A DNA stretch of 52,108 nt from assembly GCA_948442255.1 (NCBI GenBank), contig CAOJRT010000006.1, positions 1-52,108 on the forward strand. The letters are read 5' to 3'. A program made the translations under genes and the position numbers. Source of the stretch: an uncultured Caryophanales bacterium. Lineage in GTDB: Bacteria > Bacillota_I > Bacilli_A > RF39 > UBA660. The notes under the pieces were generated by a model. The model was given only the letters and a program-made list of their open reading frames with translations. It did not search any database and was not told the origin of the DNA. Shown here one piece after another: positions 6,310 through 32,543 of the stretch; positions within the stretch are counted from its first letter, which is position 1, and each line of letters opens with the position of its first letter.

Positions 6310-7119
6310 TTATAGATTTTCTTCTACCCAACGAGTAAAATTTTCTTCTGTTTGAGCTTCAATTAATTCGCTTGTTACTATTCCATTTTCTATTTTAAAG
6401 ATGGTTGGCGTTATAGTAAAACGATAATAGGTTCTTAATCTTTCAAGCTCTTCTTTTTCCATATGTGAGATATTTAATTTGTAAATTGTCTTTTCTTCTC
6501 TATTTAAAACAGCATCAATTGTCTCTTCAAATGTTAAGCTGTAATAACAAGTTTCTTTTGCTATTAAAACAGCCATATCTTCTTTTTCGATAACTTTTTT
6601 TTCTAACTCATTTAAACTAATAGGGAGAATGGTTGCATATTTGCTTTCTTCCTCTGTTGGTTCTATTTCATTTAAATCCATTTTTTTTGTATTCTCTACT
6701 ACTTTTTTGTATATATTAGACTTCAAAGTATCTGGCTCATTTGCACTCATGATATTCTTTGTCATATAGATTGTACACATCACTATGGTTAGCGCAATTA
6801 AGATAGCTAGCAAGATAATGATTATTTTTTTAGCTTGCATTCGATTTTCACTTTTCTCTTTTAAAATAGTCTGTTCTGCTTCTAATTGTTTCATGACTTC
6901 TTTTATATTATTTGTTTGGTCTTTGCTCAAAATAATTGTTTTATCTAAATTTTTTGGAAATGTTGTTGTCTCTAATACCTTTTTTTTAGCTATGTTTTTT
7001 TTCTTGGCTACCTTTTGTTGAGGCGACTCTTTTTTTGATGCTTCTGTTTCCTTTGTACCTTTTTTTACAGAAATTTTACTAGTTGTTTTTTTTCGATTTG
7101 TTTTCTTTTTTTCGTCCAT
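6310..7119 (-). CDS. Membrane-anchored thioredoxin-fold protein with degenerate CxxC
   Basis: The 269-residue protein has a Lys-rich, low-complexity cytoplasmic tail (1-60), one membrane helix (about 98-119) and an extracytoplasmic domain. That domain reads as a thioredoxin fold: a strand MAVLIAKETC, the active-site position CYYS (Cys191-Ser194), and TITPTIFKIENG with a predicted cis-proline at Pro238. The second active-site cysteine is replaced by serine, so dithiol exchange is unlikely. A monothiol, chaperone or binding role is possible. No family name can be given from sequence alone. It is monocistronic, with its own strong terminator. Confidence 0.6.
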   Translation of the reverse strand: MDEKKKTNRKKTTSKISVKKGTKETEASKKESPQQKVAKKKNIAKKKVLETTTFPKNLDKTIILSKDQTNNIKEVMKQLEAEQTILKEKSENRMQAKKIIIILLAILIALTIVMCTIYMTKNIMSANEPDTLKSNIYKKVVENTKKMDLNEIEPTEEESKYATILPISLNELEKKVIEKEDMAVLIAKETCYYSLTFEETIDAVLNREEKTIYKLNISHMEKEELERLRTYYRFTITPTIFKIENGIVTSELIEAQTEENFTRWVEENL

Positions 7120-7266
7120 ATTACTTCACCTATCGTTCGTCCTTATTTTATCATTTTTTATTGATTAAAAAATAAGTTTTCCTTTCTTTTTTCCTTTTTA
7201 TAAAAATTACATAAACTATTCTCTTACTCTATAAAGACAGAATCTTATATTTACTATTTTCATCTG

Positions 7267-8061
7267 TTATTTCCTTGGCTTAAGTAAACAAAGGTATTCT
7301 TCTATTGTCATATTGTAGCATTGCTCTTGATTCATAAAATATACTTCATTTTCTGCTTGTAATAAATAGGAAAACAAACTCGCTTCTATCTCTAATCTTT
7401 TTAAGTAATCTTCACTATATAATATTATTTTTTCTGATTCATAACTTATATGTTTTCCATGCTTTTTAATAAAATTTATCAATAGCATTTTTAAAAAAGA
7501 TATTTCTGGATTAGATGGATGTTTGTTGCATTCTTTATCTAAATTGGAAAATAACGTAAGATAAGCTTCATCTTCCTTTATAATGTAGCTTGTTATTTGG
7601 GAGGATAAATCAACCACAATTACTTTGCATTTTAGAATCTGATCAGAATGTCTTATTCTATCTTCTTGGTATTTTGTTATGGCTTTATTTAATACTTCTG
7701 CTAATTTTTCATCTGCCACTTTAAAATACAAAGCTCTAGCAGTACTTTGATAACCATTTATAATTGTAGGATAGGCATTTAGTGCTTTGTACTCTCCCGT
7801 ATGTTTTTTTACTCTTCCACTATTTGCTATCATAAATATAGTGTTATGATAAAAATAGGAATCTATTACTTGATTTATTTTCTCTGAATCTGATAAATTA
7901 TCATACGTTAAATGATGGTAGGACTTATCTAATTCTCTTACATGATAAAATTTATTTGGCGTAATTTTTATAAAAAAATTATTTTTTGCCTTTTCCCTTA
8001 TTACAATGTCTTGATAATGTCCTGATAAAAGGTTTATCTTTCCAGCAAATGTTACACTCAT
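7267..8061 (-). CDS. Hypothetical protein, 264 residues
   Basis: I do not recognise this family. The protein has no signal peptide or membrane segment. The N-terminal half is beta-rich (SVTFAGKINLLSGHYQDIVI) and mentions many aromatic residues; the C-terminal half is helical, with FLKMLLINFIKKHGKHISYESEKIILYS in two adjacent stretches. The frame is clean and codon use matches the neighbours, so it is probably real. It stands alone between two other minus-strand genes, with short AT-rich gaps and no clear operon partner. Confidence 0.55.
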   Translation of the reverse strand: MSVTFAGKINLLSGHYQDIVIREKAKNNFFIKITPNKFYHVRELDKSYHHLTYDNLSDSEKINQVIDSYFYHNTIFMIANSGRVKKHTGEYKALNAYPTIINGYQSTARALYFKVADEKLAEVLNKAITKYQEDRIRHSDQILKCKVIVVDLSSQITSYIIKEDEAYLTLFSNLDKECNKHPSNPEISFLKMLLINFIKKHGKHISYESEKIILYSEDYLKRLEIEASLFSYLLQAENEVYFMNQEQCYNMTIEEYLCLLKPRK

Positions 8062-8855: not shown

Positions 8856-9560
8856 TTAAAGCCTTTTAAAAGTATTTAAGTCCTCTTTTTCAAATTTACT
8901 AATACGATAAGAATCCCTTATTTTACTAATGGCTTTATTGTGAGTGAATACATTCAATTTGTTCTTTTTTATATAATTTAAGGTTTCTTGGGGATAGTGT
9001 ATATATAATTCACAAATTAACCAAGCTTGGGCCATATTGACATAATACTTTTCTGTTTGCTTTTCGTCTAAAAGAGAAAAAATCTCCATTATATGTTCTT
9101 TTTGAAGAAAATGATTTAAAATTAGAACAAACCCAATACGTGAAATAAATTCTTGGTTAGAAAGTGCTAAGTGACATGCTTCTTTCCAATATTTTTTTTT
9201 ATATTGTCTTACTATTTTTATACTATTACAGAAAGTATCACATAAAGACCAATCATCTACTCTTTTTATATATTCCTTGAAGTAAGAATGAAAATCTTCC
9301 TCTTCTTTTATTCTAGCGATGACTAAGCCTTGTAGCATGACTTCCTCATATGTTATTGGTTCATGGCTTAAATATTGCTTATAATCTGTATGTCCTATTT
9401 TCTTAGCTAAATCTTTTAATACAGGGACTTTTATTCCTGTTATTTCATACTGTGTTCTTATTATTTTTTTATTAAACTCTCGCGTTTTTTCTAAGCTTAT
9501 ACTTTTTAAATAGTTTGTAAAAGTTCTATAACTTTCTTCTGTCCAGTCTTTTGGTATCAT
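8856..9560 (-). CDS. AlkD-like DNA alkylation repair protein
   Basis: The 234-residue all-helical protein matches the HEAT-repeat DNA glycosylase family of AlkC/AlkD, which removes alkylated purines. Recognisable features are GIKVPVLKDLAKKI near residue 43, EEVMLQGLVIARIK, and the acidic VDDWSLCDTFC segment where the family has its conserved Trp and Asp. The start lies two stop codons after the small reading frame at 9564-9692, so translation may be coupled. It lies back to back with the SOS-type uvrX-yolD genes, which makes a local DNA-damage cluster. Confidence 0.85.
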   Translation of the reverse strand: MIPKDWTEESYRTFTNYLKSISLEKTREFNKKIIRTQYEITGIKVPVLKDLAKKIGHTDYKQYLSHEPITYEEVMLQGLVIARIKEEEDFHSYFKEYIKRVDDWSLCDTFCNSIKIVRQYKKKYWKEACHLALSNQEFISRIGFVLILNHFLQKEHIMEIFSLLDEKQTEKYYVNMAQAWLICELYIHYPQETLNYIKKNKLNVFTHNKAISKIRDSYRISKFEKEDLNTFKRL

Positions 9561-25342: not shown

Positions 25343-26639
25343 TTATCTTATTTTCCCTTTTGTTTCAAAAGATATATAGTTATATAAATTATTCAAGTCA
25401 TCACTATCAATGTAGATTACTCTTCCTCCTGGAGGATTAATTTTTTGATTGCCAAATACTACCCATATAATATCCATAGAAGTAGATGGCATTGTGGATA
25501 GTCCATCTGTAAATATTATTTTATTTTCTACTCTATTTGTAAAAGCATTTACAGCTATATTGAAGTCGGTTCCACCTCCACCATAAAAGGGTAGACTATC
25601 AATATCAGTTACATCCTTTATTTCAGTAAAACCATAAAACACTGTATCAAAACAACCAACTTTTACGCTTGCATTTGACAAAATGTTTTTACATTCTCTT
25701 AAAAAGTTTCTAAGAAGAGTTTCTTCAATAGAACTACTTGTATCTAAAAGAATTTCTGCTTCTGGTTTTGGTATTTCCTCTAAATAAGGTGTTAGTACTC
25801 CATCTTCTATTTGAGCATTTTGGTAAGACCAGTCTATTTCATATTTTATGGCTTCTTTTAATAAGATTCGCCAATCTATTAGAGGCTCTGCATAGCCAAT
25901 ATATGTTATGTTTCTTTTTTTCCCTCTGTGTCAGTTCCACAACCATGTGCCTGACTTGCTAGTGATTTGCTTAATTCATCTAACCTTTTTTTTCGTTCTA
26001 TTTTATTTTATTTAAAGATTTTTTTCTCTCCCATTTCAGCCATTCTTTTTATAGCTTCCTTTTTTCTTTCTTCTTGCTCTACTTTTTCAGATCTTTTGTC
26101 TATTTCCTGGTCTTTTGCTTCTTCTTTTTTCTTTTCTATTGCTTTTTCCCAAATAGAATGATCGTCGTGACCAACATTTTCCGTTTCCACTTCTTCTCCT
26201 TCTATACATGAATCTTGATTAGAAATTCCATTTTCCTGTCCTTTTCCTTGTTTTTTTCTTTTAAAAGTTTTTTATACATTTCTTCAGCATCATAATTGAT
26301 TGCTTCTTCTATGTCAACACAGCCCTTTACAAGAGACATTCCGTCCTCTTTTAAATAGGCATTTATTATCGCATCTGTTGCTTTATTCCAAATTTTTTTA
26401 TCTTTTTTTTCCGATCTAAAGATATGGTTAAAAGCAATATGACAAACTTCATGGGCAAATACAAAGGTTTGCTCAGCGTCCGTTAAGGGATTCATAAAGT
26501 TAGGATTATAATAAATTGTTTTTCCATCGGTGGCGGCGGTCTTTATCGTTTGATCTGGAAGAAAGTTTGTATTTGCTACTACACTGCCAAATAAAGGTTA
26601 TTTAATTAGTAATCTTCTTATTATTGTTTCTAGCTTCAT
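25343..26639 (-). pseudogene. Broken metallopeptidase-VWA (DUF2201-type) partner of the MoxR cassette
   Basis: Conceptual translation gives a protein of about 432 residues. The N-terminal part has NLPDQ-type TAATDGKTIYYNPNF and HEVCHIAFNH, a HExxH zinc motif. The C-terminal part has a VWA domain with the MIDAS pattern DTSSS, GGGGTDF and IFTDG. The gene has two in-frame TAA stops (26598-26600 and at about 26008) and two frameshifts, at A7 runs near 26248 and 25920. Each shift is repaired by one extra A, which makes the total length divisible by three. The family normally works with MoxR AAA proteins. This copy is probably dead. Confidence 0.75.
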
Positions 26640-26649
26640 ATACTACCTT

Positions 26650-27051
26650 TTAAATCTGTGCACAAAGAGAATAAACTTCTTCATTCATTTTATTTTTAGT
26701 TAAATTAGAACATGTAGCTACAATTAAACAATTTTTTGGCAAATCAAATGTACTTACTTTCTTATATTTTAGTATCTCGATAAATTTTGTTTGTTCTTCA
26801 AGAGCTATTTCATTTATATTTTCAATGACTAGAATAACATACCCCTTTTTACTATTTTCTATTACTTGTTTATACCATGTTGGAGGACAAAATTCGGTAT
26901 CTTCATAATGTCCATTTAATTCTGTTCTCTCTATATTAGCTTTTATAATAATGGCATGATTAAAAGAAGCTGATGGGATGTTTTCTATTAATAAAGGAGA
27001 TATACCTGCTTTTATATAATTTTCTAATAGACTTAATCGTTCTTTGTTCAT
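26650..27051 (-). CDS. Degenerate AAA-like partner without Walker A
   Basis: The 133-residue protein aligns with the middle of the MoxR protein encoded just upstream: CPPTWYKQVIENS matches IPPTWYKRLVEKC, and VILVIENIN sits at the Walker B strand with the acidic pair changed. There is no P-loop, so it should not hydrolyse ATP. It overlaps the MoxR stop by 4 nt (ATGA). It may be a regulatory or adaptor subunit of the AAA ring, or a remnant. Confidence 0.65.
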   Translation of the reverse strand: MNKERLSLLENYIKAGISPLLIENIPSASFNHAIIIKANIERTELNGHYEDTEFCPPTWYKQVIENSKKGYVILVIENINEIALEEQTKFIEILKYKKVSTFDLPKNCLIVATCSNLTKNKMNEEVYSLCAQI

Positions 27052-28976
27052 CTTCTTATTCCTCCTTGTGATAAGCTATCCGCTAGTTGTAGTTCGGCAA
27101 GCCGTTCTAATCGTTCTTTGTCTCCATGCGTCCACATGGATTCAAATGCAGCTTTTGGCTCTGCTCCTATTTTTTTCATAAATTCTCTTACTACTTCAAA
27201 ATGCTCATCGTCGACAGAGGATAATCCTACTGCGGTTGCAAATTTTTGGGCTATATCCATTTCAAAATCATCGTTTGTATAATTTCCTTCAATTACATCT
27301 TCTACAGTTATTACTTGTTGGCGAACAAAAGCAATAAAATCAGTTGTCAATTCATTTCCTATTAAAGCTCTTAGCATTGCTGGTTGATTTGTTGCATACA
27401 AAAATTTAGATGCCATCTCCCATTTTCTTGGGTCTGCATTTGGTTTGTCCCCTGTATAAGGCGTTCTTAAAACATCTTCTCCACTATAAGATTTATAAGC
27501 TACATAAGCATAAATAGCGGGATGAATTTTCGCTTGTGGCTCTTCTTTTTTTAAAGTTAATCTTTCGTATTTTTCTTTCGGCGTGGAAGCCCATCTTAAC
27601 CAACTATCTATAGTTGTGTAAATATAAACATGAGCAAAACGATTAAACAAAGGTTCAGCCATTTGATTAGCAGCTAAAGAATCCTTTAAATCATTTCCAG
27701 CAGCTACTATTCGCGCGTTTTGTGGAAGTTTCCATATTCCATTTACTTCCCCGTCTAATATTATATTGAAAGCCATTCCTTGAATAGAAGGTAGTGCATT
27801 TGTCAGTTCATCAAAAAATAGAATATGAATTTTATCTGGTTCTTTAGAGCACTTTTCTACTAAGCGTTTATACCATGTTGGGGGAATGTCAAACATCTCT
27901 TTTGTTTCCGCATTATAAACACTTTTTCCATTTAAACTATCTGGAGTAGCATTTCGCATGTATAGAATTTCACAATCAGGATCGAATTGTTTTACTCGTG
28001 CCGATTTACCCTCGCTAGAACGGCCATGCAAAAAGACGGCAACATTACTTTCCAAAGCTCCTTTTATTATCTCTTCTTCTTCTACGTTAGCAAAATTGAA
28101 AGCATAAGGATTTTTCTTTCTTATTTTTTTCCCTGATAGGCTTTCTGTGTCCTCTTGTAAATCATTTGTATATACATTATTCGTTTCAATCTCTTTTGCA
28201 AAAAAATTATCCATAAATTTTTTTATATTAGTACGAAGAAAATCTCCCGTATAATTTTGTTCTTTATTAAATTGTACTCCTGAAAAAAGAATTTTCTTCG
28301 AAAGAGCAATACTATTATTTTGATCTACAAGCCAAGTTATAGGTTCTACTTTTACCCAATATACATTCCCACTTTGTATAGTTCTTCCATCAGGCAAAAC
28401 TTCTCCATCACCATTGGAATCGCCAATGAAACGAATGTATTTTTGTCCTTTATATTCATATTCGGTAAATGTTCTTGGTTGAAAATCTTTGTTATAATCA
28501 CTTAAACTTGCAGAGTCAGTTGTATAAACTCTCCCTGTTACTTTTAAGCCTCCATTATTATAAGACTTTTCTAATTCGTTTGAAAAATTTTCATCCACTA
28601 TGGTTTGTGGATATTCTCCATAAATTGTCTCTTTTACTCCGCTTTTCCCTCTCACTACGTTCGAGGAGATAGAGGAGATGGCAGAGTAAGGTAAAGCTGG
28701 GCGAGCCCCACCAGAGCGTTTGAGAATATGGAACCAAATTCTAGTACCATCTCTGATAACGACGCGCGCGTTATTATCTTCAGGGGTTTGTGTCCACCAC
28801 CAACCAGTTCTATCTTTTCTAGAAGATCCTTCATTAGTATAAAAACCAGTTGCAACATAACCACCTAATAAAATGGCAAAGTCTGTTATTGCACATTTTG
28901 TCCCATATTTTTCAAATATATCTAATTTGTTTTTACCAAAAATTTGTTCTTCTTTTAAAAATATAAAGTTACTCAT
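27048..28976 (-). CDS. DGR target: variable lectin-like domain fused to MoxR AAA+ ATPase
   Basis: This 642-residue protein is the target of the DGR. Residues 1-100 resemble the C-terminal half of a DUF6273/C-type-lectin-like fold (GWWWTQTPEDNNARVV, then GGARPAL), and the variable repeat encodes residues 70-96. Residues 115-265 form a second DUF6273-like domain (YGEYPQTI, WVKVEPITWLVD). Residues 285-642 are a MoxR-type AAA+ ATPase: Walker A GRSSEGKS (318-325), Walker B ILFFDE (385-390), sensor AAGND and LFNRF arginine. It has a GGTGAT ribosome site and lies 56 nt after the reverse transcriptase. It likely couples ligand recognition to an ATP-driven partner. Confidence 0.85.
   Translation of the reverse strand: MSNFIFLKEEQIFGKNKLDIFEKYGTKCAITDFAILLGGYVATGFYTNEGSSRKDRTGWWWTQTPEDNNARVVIRDGTRIWFHILKRSGGARPALPYSAISSISSNVVRGKSGVKETIYGEYPQTIVDENFSNELEKSYNNGGLKVTGRVYTTDSASLSDYNKDFQPRTFTEYEYKGQKYIRFIGDSNGDGEVLPDGRTIQSGNVYWVKVEPITWLVDQNNSIALSKKILFSGVQFNKEQNYTGDFLRTNIKKFMDNFFAKEIETNNVYTNDLQEDTESLSGKKIRKKNPYAFNFANVEEEEIIKGALESNVAVFLHGRSSEGKSARVKQFDPDCEILYMRNATPDSLNGKSVYNAETKEMFDIPPTWYKRLVEKCSKEPDKIHILFFDELTNALPSIQGMAFNIILDGEVNGIWKLPQNARIVAAGNDLKDSLAANQMAEPLFNRFAHVYIYTTIDSWLRWASTPKEKYERLTLKKEEPQAKIHPAIYAYVAYKSYSGEDVLRTPYTGDKPNADPRKWEMASKFLYATNQPAMLRALIGNELTTDFIAFVRQQVITVEDVIEGNYTNDDFEMDIAQKFATAVGLSSVDDEHFEVVREFMKKIGAEPKAAFESMWTHGDKERLERLAELQLADSLSQGGIRR
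28693..28770 (-). repeat. DGR variable repeat (VR)
   Basis: This segment pairs with the template repeat at 30273-30349 (constant offset 1579 on the plus strand). In the 63-nt core, all but one of the differences fall where the template has adenine on the coding strand. Nine residues are changed (74, 75, 78, 80, 82, 83, 85, 88 and 94 of the target) and two changes are silent. The 5' edge GCGCGCGTCGTT and GGTGGGGCTCG near the 3' edge are identical. Confidence 0.93.
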
Positions 28977-29032: not shown

Positions 29033-30054
29033 CTATTTGAAAGGAATTAACTCCTTTTTAAATTTTTTACTCTCTTTAGTCTTTTTAATATGGTTATAAA
29101 AAGAGTTTTTTCTTTGGTAAACATATTCTTCATCTACTATTCCTTTATTGAATAGTTTATTTATTGTTTTCAAATGATTCTTCATGCGCTGTTTTGATGA
29201 TTGCCTTAATCTCATAATGATTTTTCCTTTTTCTTTTAAAATATGTCTATATCCTAAGAAATCGATCCTATTTTTCGTTCTTCCTATTTGCGTTTTTTCA
29301 TTTAGTTCTAATTCAAGAACTTCTTGACAAAACTTTTCAATTTCTTTTTTACATTCAGTTAAGTATTTTTTATCTCTATGAATTAAAATCATATCATCCA
29401 TGTATCTAACATAACTTTTTATTTTTAATTTTTCTTTTATAAAATGGTCTACTTTATTTAGGTATAAAAGGGCAAACCACTGACTTGTTTGATTCCCAAG
29501 AGGAAGACCTACGTTAGTTTTATCTGGTTGTTCTTTTATGATTTTTTTGATTAACCACATTTCGTCGTCCGAAAAATCGATTTCTTCTAAAATTCTTATT
29601 AAAATAGAGTGATTAATACTAGGAAAATATTTACGAATATCACATTTTAGAAAATATATATCATTGTTATTTTCTTTTCTAAATTCTTTCCTTAAAAAGC
29701 TATGTAATCTTTTTATAGCAAAAATAGTTCCCTTTTCTTTTCGACAAGCACAATTATCATAGATTAATTTTTTTCTATTTTTTCTTTTAAGCAGGCATCA
29801 CAAAAACATCTTACGACAAGTCTATCTTTAAAGGGTAAGGCTTCTATAATTCTTTTTTTGGGTTCATAAATAATAAATTTTTTATATTTACCTAGTTTAT
29901 ATTGTTTTGTTACTAATTCTTTTCTTAAAAGGGTTAAGTTTACCGCTAAATTTGCCTCAAAACGGATTACTTCTCCTTTATGTTGTTTGGCTTTTCGGCA
30001 ATTTTTGTAAGCACTATATAAATTTTCAAAGGTAAATATTTCTTCTAACTTCAT
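29033..30054 (-). CDS. DGR reverse transcriptase (frame break at an A7 run)
   Basis: The start at 30054 (MKLEEIFTFENL) has a GGGAGG ribosome site. RT motifs are in order: EPKKRIIEALPFKDRLVV, the catalytic KCDIRKYFPSINH, GLPLGNQTSQ, YVRYMDDMILIH with the YMDD box, then RIDFLGYRHI. The GNxTSQ sequence in motif 4 replaces the QGxxxSP of group II intron enzymes and is a DGR hallmark. The frame breaks near 29766 at an A7 run. One extra A makes 341 codons (340 residues), the normal DGR size. Slippage or a -1 frameshift could restore it; otherwise the gene is dead. No maturase or HNH domain follows. Confidence 0.88.
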
Positions 30055-30272
30055 AGGTTCCTCCCAAAAAATAAACACTCCTTCTAACGCGCAAAGAGTT
30101 TTATACTCGTTGCTTGTGTGAGTGTTTTTGTCTTTTTCCATCGCGCTAAGAAATTCTCTTTTAGCGAATAGAAAAGAAGAAAATTCCTTCACCTTACAAT
30201 ACGGATATATTTTTCTTAAAATATATTTCTCTGATTTGTTTTTTGAATCTTATAATGATTCCTTCAAAAGTG

Positions 30273-30349
30273 AATCTGGTCGAGCCCCACCATTTCGTTT
30301 GTTAATATTGTTCCAATTTCTATTACCATCTTAGTTAACGACGCGCGCG
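30273..30349 (-). repeat. DGR template repeat (TR)
   Basis: This 77-nt copy of the variable repeat lies between the avd-like gene and the reverse transcriptase, as in known DGRs. It is rich in AAC/AAT codons and reads in the target frame as VVN*DGNRNWNNINKRNGG. The core has 27 adenines, of which 14 differ in the VR. One TAA codon is present where the VR has AGA. Confidence 0.93.
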
Positions 30350-30431: not shown

Positions 30432-31016
30432 CTAATTCTTTTTCTTCCATCTTTCATCATCACTTTTCTTCCAAGCAACGATAAGATTGATGGTTTCTGC
30501 AAGTAGTATAGAAATCTGCTTGTATTGCTTTTGTAGGATACAACCAGAACTTTCTGCTACCATTGCTATATAGCCTAATAATTTTAATTTCACTATTGCT
30601 TCTTTTTGAAAATTTTCTCTTTTCTCTTTATTAGTAGCTGAATTCATTTGGATGAAATTTGCTTCTAAAAGATATTCAATTGTATCTAATGCATAATTTT
30701 GCATGCGATTTACAAATACACTTCTAAACTTTTTAGGAGATTTTTCTGTTATTGTAATTACGTAAGCACATAATTTTTTAGCAATTGTAATCACCATTAA
30801 ATCATTGGCATTGGATGGGATTTTTTCGATTATTTTTAAATCTTTATCTTCTAATTCTAATACTTCTTTTTCTTTTGTTTCGTTAAATTTTTCTTTTTCT
30901 GCCATGGCTATTCCTTTCTTGATTGCTACCACATCATCTATAGCATTTGCAGATCTAGTAACAATTTCAAGTTCTTTCGGAATTTTTAACTGATTGCTTC
31001 TACTTACTTGTAACAT
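30432..31016 (-). CDS. Avd-like accessory protein of the DGR
   Basis: The 194-residue protein has an N-terminal extension followed by a four-helix bundle domain like Avd, the pentameric partner that DGR reverse transcriptases need for cDNA synthesis. The helices include KKFRSVFVNRMQNYALDTI, AIVKLKLLGYIAMVAESSG and YKQISILLAETINLIVAW. I chose the ATG at 31016 with an AAGGA ribosome site; a longer frame to 31067 is less likely. It is the first gene of the cassette avd-TR-RT-target. The N-terminal extension is unusual, since typical Avd proteins are near 130 residues. Confidence 0.75.
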   Translation of the reverse strand: MLQVSRSNQLKIPKELEIVTRSANAIDDVVAIKKGIAMAEKEKFNETKEKEVLELEDKDLKIIEKIPSNANDLMVITIAKKLCAYVITITEKSPKKFRSVFVNRMQNYALDTIEYLLEANFIQMNSATNKEKRENFQKEAIVKLKLLGYIAMVAESSGCILQKQYKQISILLAETINLIVAWKKSDDERWKKKN

Positions 31017-31177
31017 GAAAACACATCCTTGTACTTCTATCCGACAATAGTAATAGAAGTGATTCAAAAAGTTAAAATAGTTCCCAATTACTACCTGACT
31101 TTTTTGACATATTTTGAAATTTCTATTAAAGGTTTTCTTAAAATAGAAAGTTTTCTTTCTATTAATTCATTTTAACA

Positions 31178-31605: not shown

Positions 31606-32543
31606 CTATTTACGAAGAAGATGACTATAATCTTTATTTAATTTTTGGTTATAAATAGCGAGCGCTTCTTCATTTCTTAATGATAATCCATAATATGCAT
31701 TCATTTCAGGTATACTAAATTCACCACATATAATTTTGTCTAACATTTCCTTTAATTTTTTAGGATCGTCTAAATAGCGGTTTCGCAAGAATCTCCATAA
31801 AATTCCGCTAAGAAATATGCGTAAGATTCATGGTTTTGGCATTCTTTATAAATACTACTATATTCTTTACCAAGGACATTTTCAACAAATATTTCGATTG
31901 CCCTTTTTTGTTCTTCTTTTTTAAACATTTGTTGTTTTAGGTAAAAAATACGGCTTGCTGCATGTTTTTCTACTATGTCTTCTTTCATTAACCTACTCCA
32001 TTCATAAGCCATAATATATTCCATAAGAATGTTTAATTCCTCTTTGTAGTGAATATTGCCAATAACGTGATTAAAATCTTTTGTAATAAAAAAGTCTAAT
32101 AAAGCTCGCATAATTACATTAGCTCCTACTACTACCTCAATAGATACTAATTCTTTGCTAATATAAATTTTCTTAGGAATATAAATTCCGTTTTCTAAAT
32201 CTGATTCTAAATCTCCTGCAAAAATAGAGATATTTGGGTTCACCTTTATCATGTTAATTAAATTTTCTATCAGTGCTTCATGCTTATCTCCTAATACTTT
32301 GACTAGTATTACTTTCAAAAAATTTTTTATTTCTTTCAATCTAACTCTATTATAAGAAAATATAAAAGGAGCGGGTATTTCCGTTTTTTCTAATTTTGTT
32401 CCTAATCTTTCATAATTTCTTTTGCTTTGTTTATCTGTTAGTTCTGAAAAATCTCTATTATGATCACGTCTTTTATCTTCTTCAAAATTATCTAAGACTG
32501 TTTTTAGTTGTTCTATTGACTCTATTGCTTGTATTGCATCCAT
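31606..32543 (-). CDS. Hypothetical protein, probably frameshifted near 31780
   Basis: One frame runs 257 codons from ATG 32543 and ends at 31770 (YFLAEFYGDSCETAI). A second frame continues from about 31788 to 31606 (RNRYLDDPKKLKEMLDKII), with only a TTG as a possible start and no ribosome site. The second part reads as the natural C-terminus of the first, so a frameshift has probably split one gene of about 310 residues. The protein is soluble and helical and I do not recognise it. Confidence 0.5.

Follow-up and report, generated by a model that had tools for sequence, protein, structure and literature searches.

DGR-linked MoxR systems and the cassette in the window

Ternary conflict systems that combine VMAP, MoxR and vWA proteins with a DGR have been described by Kaur et al. 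(2020, PMC7159879) and Dore et al. (2024, PMC10907252), and in the latter study a model was proposed in which the DGR target acts as the sensor and MoxR as the relay. The cassette analysed here lies in a stretch of 52,108 nucleotides from an uncultured Caryophanales bacterium, which is referred to as the window, and it resembles those systems in that a MoxR ATPase and a vWA protein occur together with a lectin-type domain in which a DGR creates diversity. The VMAP/MoxR-vWA systems have likewise been proposed to work as an intracellular sensor with an NTP-driven switch. Their architecture, however, is different. In the VMAP systems, the lectin domain (FGS/CLec) is C-terminal and is fused to the vWA protein or to an N-terminal extension, MoxR is encoded by a separate gene, a VMAP effector is usual and the hosts are multicellular bacteria, whereas in our case the lectin-type domain is N-terminal and sits on MoxR, the sensor and the ATPase form one chain, the vWA protein is of the DUF2201 metallopeptidase-VWA type and the host belongs to the small-genome Bacilli. 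Pfam and PADLOC scans of the target, its partner and the flanks found no VMAP domain, and PADLOC had no model that matched the target, the small AAA protein encoded next to it (AAA2) or the VWA protein. The fusion lacks the combination of features that defines the VMAP ternary class, i.e., MoxR, vWA and VMAP with a C-terminal lectin on the vWA protein.

Variable DUF6273 domains are also known from the tentaclins, phage C-lectin proteins with an N-terminal DUF6273 domain that is followed by Ig domains (PMC10743442). These are virion proteins without an ATPase, whereas in the present target the DUF6273 halves are swapped and there is neither a signal sequence nor a virion context. A survey of DGRs showed that their VRs are found at the C-termini of the targets with near-universal modularity, which was explained by cis-acting sites that are located outside the coding sequence (PMC8144416). 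The cassette shares with generic DGRs, such as those of Mtd and TvpA, a reverse transcriptase with GNQ(S/T)SQ and YMDD motifs, an Avd gene, substitutions between TR and VR that are directed to A and a lectin-type VR domain, but its VR, together with the GC-rich 3' end, sits about 545 codons ahead of the target stop rather than at the C-terminus. According to two further reports (PMC9976466, PMC13036017), MoxR rings work together with VWA partners. The NorQ/NorD and RavA/ViaA pairs likewise place a MoxR AAA+ ATPase beside a VWA protein; they have no variable domain, whereas here there is additionally an AAA protein without a P-loop and a metallopeptidase on the VWA partner. DGR-MoxR-vWA conflict systems and the N-terminal DUF6273 VRs of phage tentaclins are therefore already known. 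In the literature searched, the coverage of which was partial, we found no description of a permuted DGR target domain or of a DGR lectin domain that is fused to MoxR itself and no mention of DUF2201 together with MoxR.

On the minus strand of the window, the genes follow the order Avd, TR, RT, target, AAA2 and DUF2201 metallopeptidase-VWA, with these features:

30432-31067, minus strand: Avd accessory gene, ORF of 211 aa; Pfam bAvd match with E 1.4e-5, below the curated cut-off
30267-30349, minus strand: template repeat (TR), which holds an in-frame TAA; 79.5% identity to the VR
29033-30054, minus strand: DGR reverse transcriptase (RT), pseudogene or frameshifted gene; piece 1 at 30054-29770, piece 2 at 29791-29036
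27048-28976, minus strand: DGR target of 642 aa, fully open; circularly permuted DUF6273 domain and MoxR-type AAA+ ATPase
28683-28970, minus strand: C-terminal half of the DUF6273 domain, target residues 3-98, carries the VR; profile-profile match
28688-28770, minus strand: variable region (VR), target residues 69-97; match to the TR
28188-28640, minus strand: N-terminal half of the DUF6273 domain, target residues 113-263 (YGEYPQ ... EPITWLV ... SKKIL ... KKFMDNFF); profile-profile match
27048-28121, minus strand: MoxR-type AAA+ ATPase, target residues 286-642; has both Walker motifs, sensor 1 and the Arg finger
26650-27051, minus strand: AAA2, degenerate AAA paralogue of 133 aa without Walker A, fully open; overlaps the target stop by 4 bases
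25343-26640, minus strand: DUF2201 metallopeptidase (HEVCH) and VWA (DTSSS) pseudogene; fragments set against the 436-aa protein of locus L139, which is intact

The target protein and its N-terminal DUF6273 module

The TR and VR of the window align over 83 bp without gaps and with 17 mismatches, 14 of which are at a template A, i.e., 14 of 28 A sites are changed compared to three of 55 non-A sites (Fisher p 5e-6). A-biased TR/VR mismatches were also present in four relatives, and a check of the whole genome revealed one VR only for the TR of the window. A second, distantly related reverse transcriptase is encoded elsewhere in the same genome (G000:C1:97569-98330, a 386-aa frame).

The original prediction placed a VR near the N-terminus of a MoxR-type ATPase that has intact Walker A, Walker B and sensor residues and no signal peptide, and these points held. 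The VR corresponds to residues 69-97 of the 642-aa target, Walker A is GRSSEGKS (residues 318-325), Walker B is LFFDE, and the conserved N428 and R446 were also found. Inspection by eye revealed no hydrophobic signal sequence at the N-terminus. The Walker A/B, sensor 1 and Arg finger motifs were conserved across 31 family members, among which Pfam matched AAA_5 in 15, AAA_3 in four and bpMoxR in one. The window target alone had only a sub-threshold AAA match in the Pfam scan, and its ATPase part matches records annotated as "MoxR family ATPase". Profile searches of the PDB gave no usable lectin or MoxR match, and a sequence search of the PDB gave no match for the DUF6273-type domain.

The prediction of a second DUF6273-like domain between the VR and the ATPase was not borne out, because profile-profile alignment identified the two N-terminal segments as swapped halves of one DUF6273 domain. 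For residues 3-98, the match is restricted to columns 77-168 of DUF6273, its C-terminal half (Prob 96.7, E 4e-10); that of residues 113-263 is restricted to the N-terminal half. When a profile with the halves swapped was compared with three normal DUF6273 proteins of related Bacilli, a single alignment over 211 columns was obtained (score 145, E 1.7e-21), while in the native order only one half aligned (score 99) and column-shuffled control profiles scored 17.6 and 16.0. The Pfam DUF6273 model agreed weakly and below the threshold, with residues 9-96 of L139 matching profile positions 90-168 and residues 254-322 of L034 matching positions 5-73. In a Pfam scan, DUF6273 scored no higher when the halves of single sequences were swapped, so the permutation rests on the profile-profile comparison. 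Two separate lectin domains were also considered and were ruled out, since each segment is a complementary half of DUF6273 and the segments do not match each other. Judged by these alignments, the N-terminal module of the target is one circularly permuted DUF6273 domain, and the swapping of its halves would account for the position of the VR at the N-terminus. AlphaFold and DALI analyses in another study (PMC10743442) revealed a resemblance of DUF6273 to C-type lectins, with a surface hairpin that bears the VR. Our own AlphaFold models of the target, which were built on three alignment rows (the window, L139 and L051), had a mean pLDDT of 34.8 and 41.5.

The permuted module also occurs as a stand-alone protein of about 270-320 aa (L041-L045). 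At L040 (2068-6986), a separate MoxR-like AAA_5 gene precedes the genes for two ankyrin-repeat proteins, each with the permuted DUF6273 module at its end, which represents a second kind of pairing between the module and MoxR. Short proteins at L150 (7820-8932) and L030 (1198-2337) consist of the sensor module and the C-terminal tail of the ATPase without the AAA core, and one of them sits directly upstream of a full fusion; they are possibly extra sensors that dock via the ATPase tail. Other DGRs in this bacterial family have their VR where it is usually found, at the C-terminus, and their targets are secreted or pilin-like. Such DGRs are numerous (L090, L092, L097, L098, L102, L105 and L108), and several of their targets are of the DUF6273 type.

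Relatives of the cassette and their diversification

A profile of the target matched 90 of the 386 genomes that were sampled from the same bacterial family. In 24 genomes of this sample, not counting the source, a single match spanned the N-terminal domain and the ATPase, which confirms that the predicted VR-MoxR fusion has homologues. The only named non-viral match among the genome contigs was L051, a Bacilli MAG from the roe deer rumen. Outside the family, 395 genomes of the class and 392 of the phylum (overlapping samples) yielded no fusion; the matches there were confined to stand-alone MoxR proteins of about 370 aa, some of them adjoining a DUF2201-like gene (L048-L050). Phage and plasmid records matched the ATPase part only, with up to about 31% identity.

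AAA2 and DUF2201 metallopeptidase-VWA genes form an operon with the fusion in most of the relatives, and the VWA gene is present in nearly all loci. The predicted link between MoxR and a VWA protein is therefore reflected in an adjoining partner gene, which additionally bears an HExxH metallopeptidase domain. The DUF2201 proteins have HExxH, then a third conserved His, and a MIDAS DxSxS motif. HExxH was kept in 19 of 21 VWA partners and altered in L031 (HEICY) and L140 (HVICH), and hence the peptidase activity may be dispensable. In the window, Pfam matched the fragments of the gene to DUF2201_N (E 1.6e-16) and DUF2201 (E 1.7e-8). An alignment of AAA2 to the AAA core of the target itself revealed that the P-loop is missing, and Walker A was absent from all of the AAA2 orthologues that were examined.

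Seven fusion loci retain an adjoining RT, which is intact in L139, L140, L142, L147 and L148 and runs to the contig end in L145 and L154. Avd, RT, target, AAA2 and VWA are all open in L140, L147 and L148. In L139, an IMG/VR contig at a prophage/host boundary, the RT, target, AAA2 and VWA are intact and Avd lies in two overlapping frames. Orthologues of Avd adjoin intact RTs and are always found between the flank and the TR; the one in L147 matches NCBIfam DivGenRetAVD with an E of 4e-5, which is below the cut-off. In the window, Avd likely starts at the conserved M18 (about 31016). A gene of 162 aa is present upstream of Avd in L089 (1954-2442), L147 (9955-10443) and L148 (3815-4303), where Avd and RT are intact, and it has no NCBIfam match.

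Over 11 kb, the L147 and L148 loci have an identity of 95.4%. Their TRs (100 bp) are identical, while the differences between the VRs affect 15 of 28 positions that correspond to a TR A compared to two of 72 others, and therefore the DGR has been active in these loci. Purifying selection acts on each of the five genes in this pair, in which the DGR is intact, with a dN/dS of 0.06 for Avd, 0.11 for RT, 0.13 for the target, 0.01 for AAA2 and 0.08 for VWA. The differences in the target amount to nine of 38 residues in the VR core (dN 0.18), none of the 62 preceding residues and two of 352 in the MoxR part. Across 12 relatives, the residues from mutable TR codons had a mean entropy of 2.69 bits, compared to 1.20 for the residues within that segment that are fixed. 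The genomes of L147 and L148 are labelled as different genera despite their 95% identity, for which horizontal transfer, a binning error or the labelling are possible reasons.

In-frame TAA or TGA codons were found in the TRs of the window (30267-30349), L139 (6626-6708), L140 (about 9230-9360) and L142 (9113-9189). The TAA in the window TR was considered as a sign of decay, but this was rejected because the TRs of L139, L140 and L142, which have intact RTs, also hold in-frame stops. L142 and L145 retain the RT, yet their VRs have an internal stop at the site that corresponds to the TR stop, i.e., TAG in L142 (VR 7599-7675) and TAA in L145 (VR about 7100-7200). The coincidence of the TR and VR stops indicates that copying by the DGR can yield OFF alleles of the sensor-ATPase; a stop in the VR would turn off the entire fusion. 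Many fusions of the family stand without a DGR, and thus hypermutation is dispensable for the persistence of the core.

Possible role and competing readings

The likely role of the fusion is cytoplasmic recognition that drives an ATP-powered effector. Information from the TR is copied into the VR with errors at adenines. In the mechanism that we propose, the DGR would thereby retune the sensor within a population, and in some relatives the stops encoded by the TR would also be copied, giving the OFF alleles. The ATPase would form a MoxR-type ring that displays many variable sensor domains, and the binding of a changing ligand at the VR surface would alter this ring. Via the VWA protein, the change may then switch either the metallopeptidase that is attached to it or a different remodelling activity, with AAA2 and the VWA-metallopeptidase as the route through which the ring works, which is proposed by likeness to the NorQ/NorD and RavA/ViaA rings. 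A protein of a phage or another invader is the simplest guess for the ligand because the sensor is cytoplasmic and variable. That the DGR serves a sensor-ATPase with such a variable ligand, acting through the VWA metallopeptidase or remodelling, we regard as an even bet. More tentative, and in our opinion a little short of even, is the complete scheme in which the permutation of a C-lectin domain freed the C-terminus of the target and placed the VR surface at the N-terminus of a MoxR ring, giving ordinary single-celled gut Bacilli a cytoplasmic sensor that is adaptive at the level of the population, with a DUF2201 metallopeptidase-VWA as the effector and OFF alleles from TR stops. A defence-island context was not found around the cassettes: among 82 proteins encoded in the flanks, two match DNA methylases and the remaining ones are largely housekeeping or mobile-element proteins. 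This counts against the sensor-ATPase reading, as do the two VWA partners with an altered HExxH, the broken RT and VWA genes of the window and the many fusions that stand without a DGR.

The known MoxR-VWA pairs, NorQ/NorD and RavA/ViaA, are chaperones or metal inserters, and the permuted lectin could correspondingly be the substrate adaptor of a MoxR-VWA machine that matures or metal-loads the cell's own, also variable, proteins with no part in defence. Surface proteins that are hypermutated by other DGRs of the same bacteria are an example, and since several DGRs in the family hit pilin-like or secreted DUF6273 proteins, such a variable clientele is conceivable. There is, however, one VR per TR in the one genome that was checked, so no template is common to a sensor and a client, and the chromosomal site of the cassette differs among genomes, which is accessory-like rather than housekeeping. 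We consider this explanation unlikely, with perhaps half the weight of the sensor-ATPase reading. Recognition of kin or strain, in which the variable sensor would tell self from non-self proteins that are delivered by neighbours and would trigger a response, was offered as an alternative for MoxR-linked DGR sensors in PMC10907252. It would fit with close relatives carrying different VR alleles, but neither a delivery system nor a gene for a cognate self-ligand was found nearby. Moreover, the small-genome Bacilli that host the cassette are not known to be multicellular, which also counts against kin recognition, and we regard it as the least probable of these readings.

These alternatives concern the family, whereas for the source genome itself the chance is slightly better than even that the system is a relic without a present function, with a target ORF that has merely not decayed so far. 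The RT of the window is split near 29770-29790, where the frame shifts by one base within a stretch of A. The DGR-type motifs LGNQTSQ and YMDD of this RT are kept, piece 2 matches RVT_1 (E 4.8e-11) and the pieces are 72-75% identical to the intact RT of L139. The VWA gene bears about four lesions, namely two stops, one around codon 14 and the other near 26000, and two frameshifts, near 26250 and 25920, and its fragments lie in three frames relative to the intact L139 protein. The three non-A mismatches between TR and VR also fit a relic. All of the relatives are metagenome-assembled, and homopolymer errors might imitate the single RT frameshift; rpoB, rpoC and other neighbours in the window are open, which makes a general sequence error unlikely, though the RT frameshift alone could be an error. 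Because the RT and VWA genes are broken, the window copy is probably dying, and its anatomy is still informative because relatives are intact. Relatives at further stages of DGR loss are in line with this: RT and Avd are fragments in L032, and in L031 (8560-8860) the sequence upstream of the TR is fused to the sequence downstream of the VR, and both the RT and the initial ~70 residues of the target are missing. The L031 junction is a TR::VR recombination scar that ended the DGR and left the ATPase operon. On the other hand, the target (642 aa) and AAA2 (133 aa) of the window are still fully open, and L032 and L031 retain the target, AAA2 and VWA intact after the loss of the DGR, and hence the remaining parts can be useful. 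An ORF upstream of tRNA-Met (31770-32543) looks frameshift-truncated near 31770-31800, which is a further sign of decay near the site.

If the sensor-ATPase reading is true, machines of MoxR and vWA that are diversified by DGRs extend beyond multicellular bacteria, the circular permutation of the lectin domain represents an escape from the near-rule of C-terminal VRs and an ATPase itself can bear a hypervariable binding surface. The compact operon, with L140, L147 and L148 as intact examples, would give direct access to the ligands and outputs of cellular DGR sensors, a long-open question. Tandem sensor-MoxR fusions were observed within one operon in L146 (5019-11946) and also in L116, L158 and L034, which suggests mixed rings with several specificities.
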